From NCBI RefSeq assembly GCF_900101045.1, contig NZ_FNFN01000007.1, forward strand, positions 186,001-250,000: DNA of 64,000 bases. Reading direction: 5' to 3'. The stretch comes from Nocardioides sp. YR527 (lineage in GTDB: Bacteria; Actinomycetota; Actinomycetes; Propionibacteriales; Nocardioidaceae). Made by a program: the position numbers and the translations under genes. The notes under the pieces were generated by a model. That model made no database searches and was not told the DNA's origin. It was given only the letters and a program-made list of their open reading frames with translations. This document shows, in pieces, positions 6,947 to 37,186 of this stretch (position 1 is its first letter; every line of letters starts with the position of its first letter).

Positions 6947-6985
6947 AACCGCCCCGCACCAAAGAGGTGCGGGGCGGTTGTTGCT
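6947..6985. terminator. Bidirectional intrinsic terminator
   Basis: 14-bp perfect stem (6947-6960 with 6966-6979), loop AAAGA, followed by TTGTTG. It lies between the convergent SGNH esterase and Bax-inhibitor-like genes. Confidence 0.8.
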
Positions 6986-9141: not shown

Positions 9142-9178
9142 GTCACCCGCGGCCCGCCGATGGCGGACCGCGGGTGAC
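9142..9178. terminator. Hairpin, possible terminator
   Basis: 17-bp stem with one mismatch (9142-9158 with 9162-9178) and a 3-base loop, between the 9220-9879 gene and the ACT-domain gene. No T-tract follows on the minus strand, so termination would be Rho-independent only in the U-less manner proposed for some actinobacteria. Confidence 0.5.
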
Positions 9179-21849: not shown

Positions 21850-22302
21850 TCAGTCGCGGAGCCGCTTCACGGCGGCGTCGTAGAGCGTCTGCGCCGCCTC
21901 GGCGGCCGCATCGGCGGCGGCGTGCGTCACCGGCTTGCCGAGATAGTTGTTGGCGTTGCGGTCCAGGCGCATCACGTCGTAGTGGGCGGCCGCGTCGCGC
22001 GGCGGCGGAGTGTCGAAGATGGCGGCCAGGAACCTGCCGACCTTCACATGGCCACCGGCGCCGTACGTCGTCTTGTAGCCGTAGCCCGCGAGCACGGCCT
22101 CGCCCACGTCGTGCGCGGCCTTGTAGGCGAGGTTGTAGCGGTTCTCGGTCCGGGTGACGTTGGGTACGTCGGCGAGGGCCGACTCCGCGCCGGCGAGGAA
22201 GGCACGGGCCTTCTTCTCGTCGGGCCTCACGGCGCGCAGGGCGCCGGAGCGTACGAGCGCGTCAACCGTCTTCTGCTGTGCCGGGGTCAGCGGCAGGGCC
22301 AT
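21850..22302 (-). CDS. HEPN-like partner of the upstream nucleotidyltransferase
   Basis: 150 residues; ATG 22302 has GGAGGT eight bases upstream inside the end of the nucleotidyltransferase gene. It is all-helical (TENRYNLAYKAAHDVGEAVLAGYG; HYDVMRLDRNANNYLGKPVTHAAADAAAEAAQTLYDAAVKRL), typical of HEPN proteins paired with MNT nucleotidyltransferases. A possible R-x4-H site (RDAAAH) is present but lies earlier than in HepT toxins, so RNase activity is uncertain. The 41-base overlap with the upstream gene suggests coupled translation. Confidence 0.65.
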   Translation of the reverse strand: MALPLTPAQQKTVDALVRSGALRAVRPDEKKARAFLAGAESALADVPNVTRTENRYNLAYKAAHDVGEAVLAGYGYKTTYGAGGHVKVGRFLAAIFDTPPPRDAAAHYDVMRLDRNANNYLGKPVTHAAADAAAEAAQTLYDAAVKRLRD

Positions 22303-22900
22303 CCGGTCCACCTCCGTAGATCTCGATCACCGGGCTGGCCCGGACCTCCTCGAGGAACCCGGTCTGCTCCTCGGCCTCCTCCGGACTCATGATCGTCGGG
22401 TTGACGATCCGCCCGACGCTGTCGGAGACCTCCCGGCAGACCCGATAGACGGCCCGCGCGTCGGGGGTGCCGATCACCATCAGGTCGATGTCGTTCGGCG
22501 GTGGCCCCGACTCCCCCCTTGCCCGGGCCGCGAACGACCCGAAGAGGAACGCCCGCTCGATCCCGTCGATGTCCTCGAGGGCCTCCCGGAGCAGCACGAC
22601 CGGGCCGGTGACCGTCAGCAGGATCTCCCGCGTAGGCGCGAGCAGCGGGCTCTGCTCGTTGCCCTTCACGAGCCGGGTCCGCCCCACTCGGCGATCGACG
22701 AGCAGCCCCGCGTCGAGCAGCCGCGCGACCTCGCGATGAACCGTCGGATAGGGCAGCCCAGCCCGCTCGGCGAGCTCGGTCATGCTCATCTCCTCGGCCG
22801 GGAGCAACAGCTCCGAGAGCAGCAGCGCCTGCGCCTCCGACCGGAACAGAGGCGCGAGCACCGGAGCCTGGTTTCTCACAAAATGGATAATAACCTCCAT
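22262..22900 (-). CDS. Winged-helix / MNT-type nucleotidyltransferase fusion
   Basis: 212 residues. Residues about 25-80 form a winged helix (MTELAERAGLPYPTVHREVARLLDAGLLVDRRVGRTRLVKGN). Residues about 100-165 form a minimal nucleotidyltransferase (LFGSFAARARGE...NDIDLMVIG) with catalytic Asp 137 and 139. MNT partners adenylylate HEPN toxins, so this may be a self-regulating antitoxin for the following HEPN gene. ATG 22900 has no Shine-Dalgarno; it sits inside a perfect dyad, suggesting leaderless, autoregulated expression. GTG 22879 is an alternative start. It begins 18 bases after mfd. Confidence 0.75.
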   Translation of the reverse strand: MEVIIHFVRNQAPVLAPLFRSEAQALLLSELLLPAEEMSMTELAERAGLPYPTVHREVARLLDAGLLVDRRVGRTRLVKGNEQSPLLAPTREILLTVTGPVVLLREALEDIDGIERAFLFGSFAARARGESGPPPNDIDLMVIGTPDARAVYRVCREVSDSVGRIVNPTIMSPEEAEEQTGFLEEVRASPVIEIYGGGPDGPAADPGTAEDG

Positions 22901-22906
22901 TTTGTG
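22877..22906. promoter_or_regulatory. Operator dyad CACAAAATGGA-N8-TCCATTTTGTG
   Basis: 11-bp perfect arms (22877-22887, 22896-22906) covering the ATG at 22900 of the winged-helix/MNT gene. TACATAT a few bases upstream could be a -10 element. A winged-helix protein bound here would block its own leaderless transcript. Confidence 0.65.
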
Positions 22907-22918
22907 GATATGTAACCC

Positions 22919-25900
22919 CTAGGTGAGCGGGTCGATGATGGCGTCGATGACGACCCGGGCCCAGTCGAGGAGATCCGGGCCGTCGAGGGGCTTGGCGGGG
23001 AAGCCCGAGGAGACCGGGCGCGGGACCATGATGGTGTCCAGCTGCGGCTTGACCAGGGACTTCGGGTACATCCGGTTCAGCCGGACGACACGGGAGTCGG
23101 GCAGCGAGACCGGGTGGAAGCGTACGTTCTTGCCGGCCAGGGTGACCTCGGAGACGCCGGCCTGGCGGGCGCGGGCGCGGAAGCGGGCGACCTGGAGCAG
23201 CGAGGAGACCTCCGCGGGCGGCTTGCCGTAGCGGTCGAGCAGCTCGGCGGCGACCGACTCCACATCCTCGTCGGAGCGGACCTCGGCCAGGCGCTTGTAG
23301 ATCTCCAGCCGCAGCCGCTCGGAGGGGATGTAGTCGTGGGGCAGGTGGGCGTCGACGGGGAGCTCGATGCGTACCTCGTTGAGCTCCTCGGCGGCGCCGT
23401 CGGGGCCGGCCTTGAACTCGGCGACGGCCTCACCGACCAGCCGTACGTAGAGATCGAAGCCGACGTCGGCGATGTGGCCGGACTGCTCGCCACCGAGCAG
23501 GTTGCCGGCGCCACGGATCTCGAGGTCCTTCATCGCGATCGCCATGCCGCCACCGAGGTCGGAGTGTTGCGCCAAGGTCGCGAGCCGCTCGTGGGCGGTC
23601 TCGGTCAGCGGCTTCTCCCCGGGGTAGAGGAAGTAGGCGTAGGCGCGCTCGCGGGACCTTCCCACACGGCCGCGCAGCTGGTGGAGCTGGGACAACCCCA
23701 GCGTGTCGGCGCGCTCGATGATCATCGTGTTGGCGTTGGAGACGTCGAGGCCGGACTCGACGAGCGTGGTGCAGACGAGCACGTCGAACTCCTTCTCCCA
23801 GAAGTCGACCATCACCTGCTCGAGCTGCTTCTCGTTCATCTGGCCGTGGGCGACCGCGACCCGCGCCTCCGGCACCAGCTCGCGGATCCGCGCGGCCGCC
23901 TTCTCGATCGAGTTGACCCGGTTGTGGATGTAGAAGACCTGCCCCTCGCGGAGCAGCTCACGCCGCACCGCGGCGACGATCTGGCGGTCCTCATAGGCCC
24001 CGACGTACGTCAGGACCGGGTGTCGCTCCTCGGGCGGTGTGGTGATCGTGGACATCTCCCGGATGCCGGTGATCGACATCTCCAGGGTGCGTGGGATCGG
24101 GGTCGCGGACATGGACAGGAAGTCGACGGAGGTGCGCAGGCGCTTCATCGCCTCCTTGTGCTCGACGCCGAAACGCTGCTCCTCGTCGACGATGATCATG
24201 CCGAGGTCCTTGAACCGGATGTCCTTGTTGAACAGGCGGTGGGTGCCGACCACGATGTCGATGGTGCCGTCGGCGAGGCCGGCCATGACCTCGGCGGCCT
24301 CCTTGTCGGTCTGGAAGCGGGACAGGCCGCGTACGTTGACCGGGAACCCGGACATCCGCTCCATGAAGGTCGACAGGTGCTGGGAGACCAGCAGCGTCGT
24401 CGGCACCAGCACGGCGACCTGCTTGCCGTCCTGGACCGCCTTGAACGCCGCGCGCACCGCGATCTCGGTCTTGCCGTAGCCGACGTCACCGCAGACCAGC
24501 CGGTCCATCGGCACCGGCCGCATCATGTCCTGCTTGACCTCGTCGATGACGGCGAGCTGGTCGGCGGTCTCCTGGAACGGGAAGGCGTCCTCGAGCTCGC
24601 GCTGCCAGGGGTTGTCGGGGCCGAACTGGAAGCCCTTGGTGGCCTGCCGGGCGGCGTAGAGCTTGATCAGCTCGGCGGCGATCTCTCTTACTGCCTTGCG
24701 GGCGCGGGCCTTCCGCTTCTGCCAGTCGGCACCGCCGAGCCGGTCGAGGCTCGGCTGCTCGCCGCCGACGTACCTGGTCACCTGGTCGAGGGCGTCGGCC
24801 GGGACGTAGAGCCGGTCGGCCGGCCCGCCGCGCTTGGAGGCGCCGTACTCCAGGACGAGGTATTCGCGGGTCGCGCCCTGCACCTCGCGCTGCCTCATCT
24901 CGATGAACTGGCCGACGCCGTGCTGCTCGTGGACGACGTAGTCGCCGGGCTTGAGCTCGAGCGGGTCGATCTGCTTCTTGCGCCGCGCCGGCATCTTGAC
25001 CATGTCGCGCGTGGACGACTTCTGCCCGGAGATGTCCTCGCCGGTGAGCACCACGAGCTGGTTGCCCTCGTCGAGGAAGCCGTGGGTCAGGCGGGCATGG
25101 ACGACGGTGACGGTCTTGTGGACGGGCTTGGCGGTCTCGGGGTCGTCCTCGGCGAGGCGGGCCGGGACGTCGCGCTCCCCCAGGGCCTCGACCGTACGCT
25201 GCGCCGTGCCGTGCGCGGGCTGGACCACGACCACGCGATAGGAGTCGTCGCGCCAGCTCTCGATGTCTGTCAGCGCGGCCGCGGTGTCGCCGCGGTAGGC
25301 CTTCGCCGGCTGCCAGTCGATCTTGCGGGCGGGGACGCCGACGACGTCCGGGTCGGTCTCGGCCGCCTGGTCGTCGAGGCCGAACGGGCTGACCGACCAC
25401 CACGGCTTGCCCAGGGCGATGGCGTGGGCGCGTACGTCGGCGAGGTCGCGGTAGGAGGCCGCGGAGAGGTCGATCGGGGCGACTCCCCCGCTGGCCGCGG
25501 CGGCCCAGGAGGCACCGAGGAACTCCTCGGCGGTGGCGACCAGGTCGTGGGCGCGGCTGCGGATCCGCTCGGGGTCGAGCAGCAGGACGTGGCTGTCCTC
25601 CGGGATCAGGTCGAGCAGCAGCTCCATGTCGTCGACGAGCGCGGGCGCGAGCGACTCCATGCCGTCGACCGCGATCCCGGCGGCGATCTTGTCGGTGAGC
25701 TCGATCAGGGTGGGGTGGGCCTCGCCCAGCTTTCGCGCTCGGTCGCGGACCTCCGGGGTGAGCAGGAGCTCGCGGCACGGCGGCGCCCACAGCCGCTCGG
25801 TCTCGCCGCCGTGCTCGGCGGGGATGGCGCGCTGGTCGGCGACCGCGAAGTGGCGGATCGAGTCGACCTCGTCGCCCCAGAACTCCACACGGACCGGGTG

Positions 25901-26500
25901 TTCCTCGGTCGGCGGGAAGACGTCGACGATGCCGCCGCGGACCGCGAACTCGCCACGCTTCTCGACCAGGTCGACGCGGGAGTAGGCCGCGTCGGCGAGC
26001 TTCACGACGACGTCGTCGAGACTCGCCTCCTGACCCTTGATCAGCTCCACCGGCTCCAGGTCGCCGAGGCCCTTGACCTGCGGCTGCAGCACGCTGCGGA
26101 CCGGGGCGACGACCACCTTCAGCGGGCCGTGCACCCCGTCGGCGTCCGGGTGGCGGAGGCGGCGGAGCACCGCGAGCCGACGCCCGACCGTGTCGCTGCG
26201 CGGGGAGAGCCGCTCGTGCGGCAGCGTCTCCCAGCTCGGGTAGTAGGCGACCGTGTCGGGCGGCAGCAGGTCGGTCAGGTCGTTGACCAGGTCCTCGGCC
26301 TCGCGCGAGGTGGCGGTGACCGCGAGGACGGTGCGCTCCTGACGTACGAGACCGGTGACCACGAACGGGCGCAGCGCCTCCGGCCCGGTGACGTCGAGCG
26401 CCAGCATCCGGCCGCCCTTGGCCTCCGCCATCACCTCGCTCAGGGCAGCATCGCGCAGGACGAGATCGGCGAGCGGGGCGAGGATCACGGGTGGCTCCAT
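22919..26500 (-). CDS. mfd: Transcription-repair coupling factor
   Basis: ATP-dependent translocase that removes stalled RNA polymerase and recruits UvrA. 1193 residues from ATG 26500, a normal length. In order: UvrB-like N-terminal module (PPDTVAYYPSWETLPHERLSPRSDTVGRRLAVLRRL), CarD-like RNA-polymerase-interacting domain (LELKPGDYVVHEQHGVGQF, about 515-575), RecG-like helicase with GDVGYGKTEIAVRAAF (about 670), DEEQRFG, SATPIPRTLEM and GRVGRS, and a C-terminal TRCF domain (LPHDYIPSERLRLEIYKRLA). No good ribosome binding site precedes the start, and an upstream extension is not excluded. Confidence 0.96.
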   Translation of the reverse strand: MEPPVILAPLADLVLRDAALSEVMAEAKGGRMLALDVTGPEALRPFVVTGLVRQERTVLAVTATSREAEDLVNDLTDLLPPDTVAYYPSWETLPHERLSPRSDTVGRRLAVLRRLRHPDADGVHGPLKVVVAPVRSVLQPQVKGLGDLEPVELIKGQEASLDDVVVKLADAAYSRVDLVEKRGEFAVRGGIVDVFPPTEEHPVRVEFWGDEVDSIRHFAVADQRAIPAEHGGETERLWAPPCRELLLTPEVRDRARKLGEAHPTLIELTDKIAAGIAVDGMESLAPALVDDMELLLDLIPEDSHVLLLDPERIRSRAHDLVATAEEFLGASWAAAASGGVAPIDLSAASYRDLADVRAHAIALGKPWWSVSPFGLDDQAAETDPDVVGVPARKIDWQPAKAYRGDTAAALTDIESWRDDSYRVVVVQPAHGTAQRTVEALGERDVPARLAEDDPETAKPVHKTVTVVHARLTHGFLDEGNQLVVLTGEDISGQKSSTRDMVKMPARRKKQIDPLELKPGDYVVHEQHGVGQFIEMRQREVQGATREYLVLEYGASKRGGPADRLYVPADALDQVTRYVGGEQPSLDRLGGADWQKRKARARKAVREIAAELIKLYAARQATKGFQFGPDNPWQRELEDAFPFQETADQLAVIDEVKQDMMRPVPMDRLVCGDVGYGKTEIAVRAAFKAVQDGKQVAVLVPTTLLVSQHLSTFMERMSGFPVNVRGLSRFQTDKEAAEVMAGLADGTIDIVVGTHRLFNKDIRFKDLGMIIVDEEQRFGVEHKEAMKRLRTSVDFLSMSATPIPRTLEMSITGIREMSTITTPPEERHPVLTYVGAYEDRQIVAAVRRELLREGQVFYIHNRVNSIEKAAARIRELVPEARVAVAHGQMNEKQLEQVMVDFWEKEFDVLVCTTLVESGLDVSNANTMIIERADTLGLSQLHQLRGRVGRSRERAYAYFLYPGEKPLTETAHERLATLAQHSDLGGGMAIAMKDLEIRGAGNLLGGEQSGHIADVGFDLYVRLVGEAVAEFKAGPDGAAEELNEVRIELPVDAHLPHDYIPSERLRLEIYKRLAEVRSDEDVESVAAELLDRYGKPPAEVSSLLQVARFRARARQAGVSEVTLAGKNVRFHPVSLPDSRVVRLNRMYPKSLVKPQLDTIMVPRPVSSGFPAKPLDGPDLLDWARVVIDAIIDPLT

Positions 26501-26619
26501 GGTGGTGGGACAAGCACGAGAGCCCCCGGCCAGCGACGGCAGGGGGTGCGGGACCAGTCTAGGAGACGTACGTAAAGACGTTTGACTTCGAGCGCACACC
26601 AAGCCGGAGCGTGGGTCTC

Positions 26620-36274: not shown

Positions 36275-37186
36275 TCAGCGGGCGTATTCGGTGACGTAGG
36301 AGCCCCAGGCGCCGCGGAGCATGCCCACGCCCCGAAGCAGGGTGCGGGTGCCGCGGGCGTGGTGGGCCGGTGAGCCGGCGAGGCGACCGAGGACGAGGCG
36401 GGCGGAGCCGCCCAGGACGCGGACGAGACCGCGGACGGTGGCGCGCAGCCGGGCGATCGGACGGCGGCCGGCAGGCGCGAGGTAGACCTGCACGCGGGAG
36501 TCGGAGTTGCCGATGCGGGAGGCGCGGGCGCGTACCCAGGACCGGGTCGCGCGGTCGGCGGGCACCAGGTCGTGGACCGGCGCCTCGTCGCACCACACGA
36601 TCCGGCCGCCGGCCGCCGACAGCGTGCGGGTGAAGACGGTGTCGGAGCCGCCGGAGAGGCCGAAGCCGAGGTCGAAGCGGAGATCGCCGACCCGGGTCAT
36701 GTCGAGCAGCAGATTGTTGGTGGCCGCGGTGGTGACGACGGTGCCGGTGGGGTGCCGCAGCCGCTGGAAGAAGCCACCCGCGGTGATCCAGGGATCCGGG
36801 TCATCGTCGAACGTGGAGAGGACCGGACCGACGACGGCAGCGGCACCGGTCTCCTCCCAGCACGCCAGCAGCGTGGGCAACCACATCTGCGAGGGCTGCT
36901 CGTCGTCGTCGATGAAGACGACGACCGCCTCGGGCCCGGCCTCGGCCAGTGCCCGGTTGCGGGCAGCGGCGATGCCGGGGGTCGGCTCGTGGACGTAGAC
37001 GACGCGTACGTCCCCTCCGGCCGCCTCCACGACCGCGGACGCAGCGCTCGGCTGCTCGTCGTTGTCCACGACGAGCAGCCGAGCGCCAGGAACCAGGTCG
37101 AGCTGGGCCCGGAGCATGCCCACCGCCTCGGCCAACCCCTCGGGGCGCCGATAGGTGAGCATGCCCACCCAGACCGGCTGGGTCAT
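36275..37186 (-). CDS. Family 2 glycosyltransferase
   Basis: 303 residues. GT-A fold: WVGMLTYRRPEGLAEAV, LLVVDNDEQPS, TPGIAAARNRAL, metal-binding VVFIDDDEQPS, and GLSGGSDTVFTRTLSAAG. Cytoplasmic enzyme adding a sugar to the lipid-linked repeat unit; donor unknown. Its ATG overlaps the stop of the propeller gene (ATGA), so a cytoplasmic enzyme is translationally coupled to a secreted protein. Confidence 0.88.
   Translation of the reverse strand: MTQPVWVGMLTYRRPEGLAEAVGMLRAQLDLVPGARLLVVDNDEQPSAASAVVEAAGGDVRVVYVHEPTPGIAAARNRALAEAGPEAVVVFIDDDEQPSQMWLPTLLACWEETGAAAVVGPVLSTFDDDPDPWITAGGFFQRLRHPTGTVVTTAATNNLLLDMTRVGDLRFDLGFGLSGGSDTVFTRTLSAAGGRIVWCDEAPVHDLVPADRATRSWVRARASRIGNSDSRVQVYLAPAGRRPIARLRATVRGLVRVLGGSARLVLGRLAGSPAHHARGTRTLLRGVGMLRGAWGSYVTEYAR

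Follow-up and report, generated by a model that had tools for sequence, protein, structure and literature searches.

The window analysed here is a stretch of 64,000 nucleotides from the soil actinobacterium Nocardioides sp. YR527. Three genes follow one another on its minus strand in the order mfd, M05A and M05B, and a perfect inverted repeat lies at the beginning of M05A. The features of the locus are as follows.

22919 to 26515, minus strand: mfd, with an approximate 5' end and a stop codon at 22921-22919; Pfam domains TRCF, UvrB_inter and CarD_TRCF_RID.
22877 to 22906: dyad CACAAAATGGA-N8-TCCATTTTGTG, a perfect 11+8+11 inverted repeat and predicted operator.
22887 to 22892, minus strand: predicted -10 box TATTAT (TANNNT), 7 nt before the GTG and at the dyad centre.
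22877 to 22879, minus strand: proposed GTG start codon and predicted transcription start (leaderless), from the alignment of starts, the PADLOC model and the stops of relatives.
22262 to 22879, minus strand: M05A, a fusion of a winged helix (wHTH, about residues 1-90) with a minimal nucleotidyltransferase (MNT, about residues 92-190), 205 amino acids plus stop from the proposed GTG; active-site residues G114 S115, D130 and D132, with N160 replacing the third Asp.
21850 to 22302, minus strand: M05B, a HEPN-domain protein of 150 amino acids plus stop; conserved H85, R112, R115 and Y120.

M05B begins with the ATG at 22302, so that it overlaps M05A by 41 bases, and it has its own GGAGG 8 nt before this ATG. 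The 41-base overlap had been noticed in a sequence-only reading of the same DNA, which also placed the pair as an insertion directly after mfd. Both statements were borne out, the latter by the Pfam identification of mfd and by relatives whose mfd loci lack the pair. Over long stretches, the mfd region shares 88.8-95.5% identity with records of Nocardioides luteus and N. turkmenicus. N. turkmenicus carries an Xre/HipA-like pair and a DUF4262 gene in the interval from mfd to the M05 pair (locus L021, 1796-4967), which suggests that the 3' end of mfd takes insertions.

PADLOC matched the two adjacent genes to PDC-M05 (1.2e-99 for M05A and 2.8e-68 for M05B), which makes the pair a member of this candidate defence family of PADLOC-DB, composed of an M05A nucleotidyltransferase and an M05B HEPN protein. 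Gene order and pairing are shared with the family; the promoter-operator architecture, the start codon and the active-site changes described below are not mentioned in the accessible part of its description. The available part of PMC12988326 gives antiphage activity as unconfirmed for the family. In the open-access literature, none of the titles or abstract beginnings among the matches listed dealt with the promoter or operator of PDC-M05 or of wHTH-MNT pairs. The N-terminus of M05A was recognised by Pfam as a winged helix (MarR_2, 1.3e-6; HTH_IclR, 3.3e-6), and the MNT match was weak (Polbeta, 8.9e-4; NTP_transf_2, 1.6e-3), with neither domain reaching the curated cut-off. The nucleotidyltransferase thus carries its own DNA-binding domain, as had been proposed from the letters alone.

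Whole-genome searches together with named loci yielded 123 M05A hits. Removal of four without N-termini and of copies above 95% identity left 99, of which 98 had 300-base flanks; the 75 that were less than 75% identical near the start formed the test set. A phylum-wide search supplied a held-out set of 25 loci (27 for the counts of HEPN partners and of the third Asp).

The sequence-only reading had drawn the fusion as a longer open reading frame, 22262-22900 on the minus strand, starting with the ATG at 22900. Homologues align from the codon for residue 8 of this frame and have an M or V codon there; by rule, the starts picked in the 75 relatives were 56 ATG and 19 GTG. The PADLOC M05A model also starts at the GTG (residue 9 of the frame is model position 2). 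Of the 75 relatives, 24 have a stop in frame no more than 8 codons before the aligned start, and 33 have one within 12 codons; translation therefore cannot begin further up in those relatives. Because of the homologue alignment, the PADLOC model and the 24 relatives with a near upstream stop, the start of M05A is most likely the GTG at 22879-22877, and we set the ATG at 22900 aside as the less likely choice. Since the nearest in-frame stop of the window is 14 codons upstream of the GTG, the frame there leaves room for the ATG, which we regard as an unlikely start. On the coding strand the left arm of the dyad holds this ATG and the right arm holds the GTG. The earlier statement that the dyad covers the ATG start is thus correct for the ATG, and the start itself had probably been misplaced by seven codons. 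In some M05A subfamilies the in-frame residues ahead of the start chosen here are also similar (for example L..GRYxP); conservation of the promoter at the DNA level explains them, and an upstream TTG start is possible in such subfamilies.

The TATTAT at 22892-22887 lies 7 nt upstream of the GTG, a spacing at which the transcript is expected to begin with the start codon. In 53 of the 75 relatives a TANNNT motif precedes the start by 6-7 nt, as compared to 0.38% at other positions; 1000 composition-matched shuffles gave a mean of 5.0 and a largest count of 12 of 75. Of the 24 relatives whose frame is closed by a stop no more than 8 codons upstream, 17 have the motif at this spacing; among all 75, it is missing there in 22. 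Hexamers resembling a -35 box occur in 32 of the 75 relatives vs. 10.6% elsewhere; that of the window (TTACAT, by eye) is poor. Leaderless expression, which the sequence-only reading had suggested, is therefore supported by the TANNNT spacing and the upstream stops, and M05A carries a TANNNT box placed so that its predicted transcript would start at the start codon. Leaderless mRNAs are reported to be over-represented among M. tuberculosis toxin-antitoxin (TA) modules (PMC3898074). Neither the GTG nor the ATG has a Shine-Dalgarno sequence at the usual spacing, in agreement with the earlier reading; there is a GGAGG 14 nt ahead of the GTG. Shine-Dalgarno-like 4-mers precede the start in 2 of the 75 relatives (8.7% elsewhere), close to the 2.7 expected from the AT-rich composition, and we dropped their scarcity as independent evidence for leaderless expression. 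TANNNT was present in 7 of the 25 held-out loci (background 2.1%). The near held-out loci had it in 5 of 7, with a Shine-Dalgarno-like 4-mer in 0 of 7, and the distant ones in 2 of 18, with such a 4-mer in 7 of 18. This contrast therefore assigns the leaderless layout to the near subfamily, the dyad near the start being more widespread.

The perfect 11-bp dyad was confirmed at 22877-22906. Its rarity in the window was rejected as evidence, since 11 perfect inverted repeats of at least 11 bp with a spacer of up to 20 are present there (0-2 in five shuffles). The ten others include those at 6950-6976, 9142-9178 and 37052-37078. Among the relatives, the best dyad centre was at -12.5, on the -10 box (profile z 4.5, n=75), and a second centre was at +38.5 in the coding region (z 3.7). 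At -12.5, at least 9 of 13 positions were paired in 22 of the 75 relatives as compared to 1.3% at other positions; fewer than 8 of 13 were paired in 40 of the 75. Pairing exceeded that of within-sequence shuffles (z 17.9) and of a control in which left halves were swapped between relatives (z 13.3), and therefore the dyad arms covary. The signal persisted in stricter, more divergent subsets of 42, 25 and 33 sequences (z 7.4-13.0), and at least 9 pairs were formed in 6 of the 25 held-out loci vs. a background of 0.5%. By these comparisons, the position and the covariation of the dyad across relatives are far above chance. By eye, several distant relatives (L188-L205) have a start codon surrounded by repeats of the GTAC or GTTCTC type, a different operator layout.

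We then compared distances between operators with distances between protein domains. Operator distance correlated with wHTH distance (0.198, the largest of 500 permutations being 0.169; 0.326 in the 34 strongest dyads). The correlation with MNT-domain distance was -0.085, and 0.128 in the 34 strongest dyads, which is not clear; flanking DNA did not correlate with wHTH distance (0.026; 0.046). At this level of comparison the operator sequence tracks the wHTH domain of M05A and not its MNT domain. An identical block, TATCCACAAAATGGAGGTTATTATCCATTTTGTGAGA, which runs from TATCC through the dyad, is shared by five near-identical loci that fall into four kinds by their upstream sequence, and the block is kept in N. 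turkmenicus, where the HipA-like pair and the DUF4262 gene separate mfd from the M05 genes. The model of the wHTH is similar to ArsR-type repressors (BigR 3pqk, Z 12.9, 94 aligned, 2.9 A). The models of M05A and M05B rest on 4-5 mostly close sequences with a mean pLDDT of 75, and we take them as supporting evidence only, because the sequences are so few and close and because a Z below about 13 between helical bundles may mean little.

The dyad might act in RNA, as a hairpin that hides the GTG on mRNA reading through from mfd and thereby restricts translation to leaderless transcripts. A 72-nt read-through RNA does fold at -27.1 kcal/mol (z -3.4), and in the 34 strong dyads G-T accounts for 0.299 of the non-Watson-Crick cells vs. 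0.218 +/- 0.018 expected. This excess is small, and the T-rich -10 constraint on the right arm may explain it; raw counts show a depletion of G-T as well as of A-C mismatches. Furthermore, since the dyad contains the -10 box, a leaderless transcript would be made without the left arm, and the tracking of the wHTH domain by operator distance also speaks against an RNA element. We consider the hairpin a very unlikely explanation of the dyad; a hairpin role could coexist with an operator role.

M05A probably represses its own gene through the dyad. The promoter and dyad geometry, the covariation of the arms and the coupling between operator and wHTH support the self-repression that the sequence-only reading had proposed. 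At the sequence level, the locus has the operator-like dyad over the predicted promoter of the putative antitoxin gene that is a feature of autoregulated type II TA operons. In mycobacteria, the -10 region is reported to be the usual centre of TA operators (PMC9477884), and the MazE6-type operators of that report resemble the window's site in lying on a TANNNT -10 box; they differ in the DNA-binding fold, and the window's site also spans the start codon. The MNT antitoxin SO_3165 has been reported to bind and repress its own promoter (PMC4621449).

The MNT active site is conserved in part. Among the 99 M05A sequences, the G of the GS motif is present in 99 and the S in 97, and D130 and D132 are each present in 98. 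The third catalytic position is N in 83, Q in 9, S in 5, H in 1 and E in 1; in the near held-out loci (n=9) it is N in 6, D in 2 and Q in 1, and in the distant ones (n=18) N in 17 and V in 1. In MntA the corresponding residue would be Asp71, which binds Mg2+ according to PMC7641770; we infer this correspondence of the N160 column from the VD/VN motif. A profile of the MNT domain gave three weak hits among the sequences of solved structures, with no MNT among them. For this reason hhalign was used to locate the third Asp; it pairs the N160 column with an invariant Asp of seven actinobacterial MNTs (probability 93.9). Other fusions were seen in the searches. A same-genus locus (L158, 1501-1959) joins an HTH, Xre-like by eye, to an MNT which keeps the third Asp, and is a second kind of DNA-binding/MNT fusion. 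A number of genomes of the class-level family f23 have frames of about 490-730 amino acids matching PDC-M05A from position 5 to about 165, and similar long frames occur among order-level genomes (G067, G093, G102); they are perhaps a longer fused relative of M05A.

An open reading frame resembling HEPN lies downstream of M05A in 84 of 99 loci and in 21 of 27 in the second set. The other 15 of the 99 loci have no recognisable HEPN partner, one of them ending 189 bases after the gene. The overlap of the two genes in relatives is most often 4 bases (77 measured). In an alignment of 19 HEPN proteins, H85, R112, R115 and Y120 never vary; across the full set of 90 profile hits, some of them partial, their conservation is 88-90%. 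The Rx4-6H motif was not found in any of the 19, which have R115-x4-Y120 and no H at that place. PF05168 matched 10 of the 19 at E<=0.001 (best 2.4e-12) and 15 at E<=1. M05B of the window gave no Pfam hit, PF05168 included; it matches PDC-M05B and HEPN folds. A search of solved-structure sequences with the HEPN profile returned nothing at E<=1, and Foldseek on the HEPN model returned no hit at E 0.001 or better. The top structural neighbour of this model, subject to the reserve stated above, was AF0298 (2hsb, Z 12.4, 116 aligned, 2.7 A), with lower scores for the HEPN chain of a solved HEPN-MNT system (8xeh_B, Z 8.6) and for AbiV (9bj7, Z 6.9). AF0298-like HEPN-T proteins and AbiV are described as missing the H from the Rx4-6H position and having a conserved H between helices 2 and 3, and an alternative histidine active site has been proposed for the AF0298 type (PMC3710099). 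M05B likewise has no H at Rx4-6H and has a conserved H between helices 2 and 3; it differs from these proteins in giving no Pfam hit.

These residues bear on the assignment of the pair. In a HepT/MntA-like type VII system the MNT would AMPylate and neutralise a HEPN RNase, and the wHTH would merely add regulation. The MNT gene precedes the HEPN gene as it does in HepT/MntA (SO_3166/SO_3165, Class I), GS and DxD are nearly invariant, Y120 is invariant in the aligned HEPN proteins, and the M05A model matches the MNT chain of the solved system (8xeh_E, Foldseek E 9.2e-4) as the HEPN model matches 8xeh_B; autorepression is also on record for SO_3165. On the other hand, the Rx4-6H is absent, the GS-DxD spacer of the window protein is 14 and not 10, and the metal-binding Asp that hhalign places opposite N160 is replaced in nearly all relatives. 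The window pair further differs from HepT/MntA in its DNA-binding domain and its leaderless start, the SO_3165 transcript reportedly starting 30 nt upstream of the gene (PMC4621449). We judge HepT/MntA-type chemistry unlikely. Without RX4HXY in the HEPN protein, and with N, Q or S at the third metal-binding Asp in 97 of 99 sequences, the pair cannot be filed under Class I. The earlier description of a HEPN-MNT TA-like pair thus stands for the HEPN/MNT pairing and not for HepT/MntA-type chemistry. In PMC7641770, Class II HEPN/MNT modules are described as having a PF05168 HEPN without RX4HXY. By its residues the pair appears closest to Class II, sharing the conserved Tyr and the absence of Rx4-6H, with PF05168 matched by 10 of the 19 aligned relatives and not by the window protein; it departs from that class in the winged helix on its MNT, in GSx14DxD instead of GSx10DxD and in the Asn for the third Asp. 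The toxin status of Class II HEPN proteins is unsettled in print, according to the same source.

A homologue is present in 7 of the 36 further genomes of the genus, and PDC-M05A matches, own genome included, in 65 of 391 genomes of the order, 49 of 394 of the class and 52 of 296 of the phylum. In two same-genus genomes (G009, G013) the homologue is far from mfd. Nineteen same-genus mfd loci outside the luteus group were readable. The pair is missing from 18 of these, in which MazG is found no more than 1.5 kb downstream of mfd; the sequence of the 19th stops 79 bases past mfd. In the window MazG is kept apart from mfd by the pair together with several further genes. The comparison among relatives that the sequence-only reading had called for therefore yields an accessory pair and not a universally conserved housekeeping one. 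Horizontal mobility is the natural inference from this patchy distribution. Carriage of the window's own type by viruses or plasmids was rejected: one pattern scan of viral contigs confirmed no relative, and the 23 plasmid records with relatives are all below 60% identity. An M05A 58% identical to that of the window is present in an unannotated faecal 'Bacteriophage sp.' scaffold (MT835496.1, 94049-94609), which may be a mislabelled bacterial scaffold.

M05A could also be a domesticated regulator outside any toxin system, sensing a nucleotide through its MNT fold with the HEPN protein as a co-factor. The replaced third Asp beside a kept GS..DxD and the missing HEPN RNase motif would suit such a role. 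The accessory, patchy distribution does not suit it, nor does the absence of a visible M05A regulon, since the 6.19-Mb genome holds the dyad once, with no second operator copy at up to 3 mismatches. The inner part of the operator has one 1-mismatch match elsewhere in the window, which is at chance level, and a dispersed regulon was rejected on these two grounds. We hold domestication to be quite unlikely.

The reading that we favour, and think probable, is an accessory module of PDC-M05 type, related to Class II, leaderless and autorepressing, with M05A as regulator and the HEPN protein as likely effector. Comparison among relatives speaks for it through the geometry of promoter, start and dyad, the covarying arms, the operator-wHTH coupling, the gene pairing and the accessory distribution. 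M05A would be an antitoxin-like regulator whose winged helix, as a dimer, binds the dyad over the -10 box and start codon, and the bound dimer would block its own leaderless promoter. M05B would be translated from the same mRNA via its overlapping start and own Shine-Dalgarno, and the MNT domain may bind, and perhaps modify, the HEPN protein in a complex. When free regulator drops, the operon would be derepressed, possibly in response to stress or phage. A further reading, which we put forward tentatively and consider rather doubtful, would be a HEPN/MNT family whose MNT, with GS..DxD kept and an Asn for the third Asp, has turned from an AMPylating enzyme into a repressor that binds nucleotide and DNA: occupancy of its nucleotide site, or of the HEPN protein, would set the grip of the wHTH on the -10/start-codon site, a nucleotide- or phage-linked signal would fire a leaderless burst of HEPN, and the HEPN protein would use an alternative His/Arg site.

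From the comparison, a specific putative regulator can be named for a PDC-M05-type family, along with its operator and start site, and autorepression by M05A becomes a question for one gel. A naive annotation would pick what is probably the wrong start codon for M05A. The active-site changes predict that the MNT chemistry would differ from that of MntA. The layout is common to many related modules, so that a poorly studied class of suspected TA/defence pairs is made testable.
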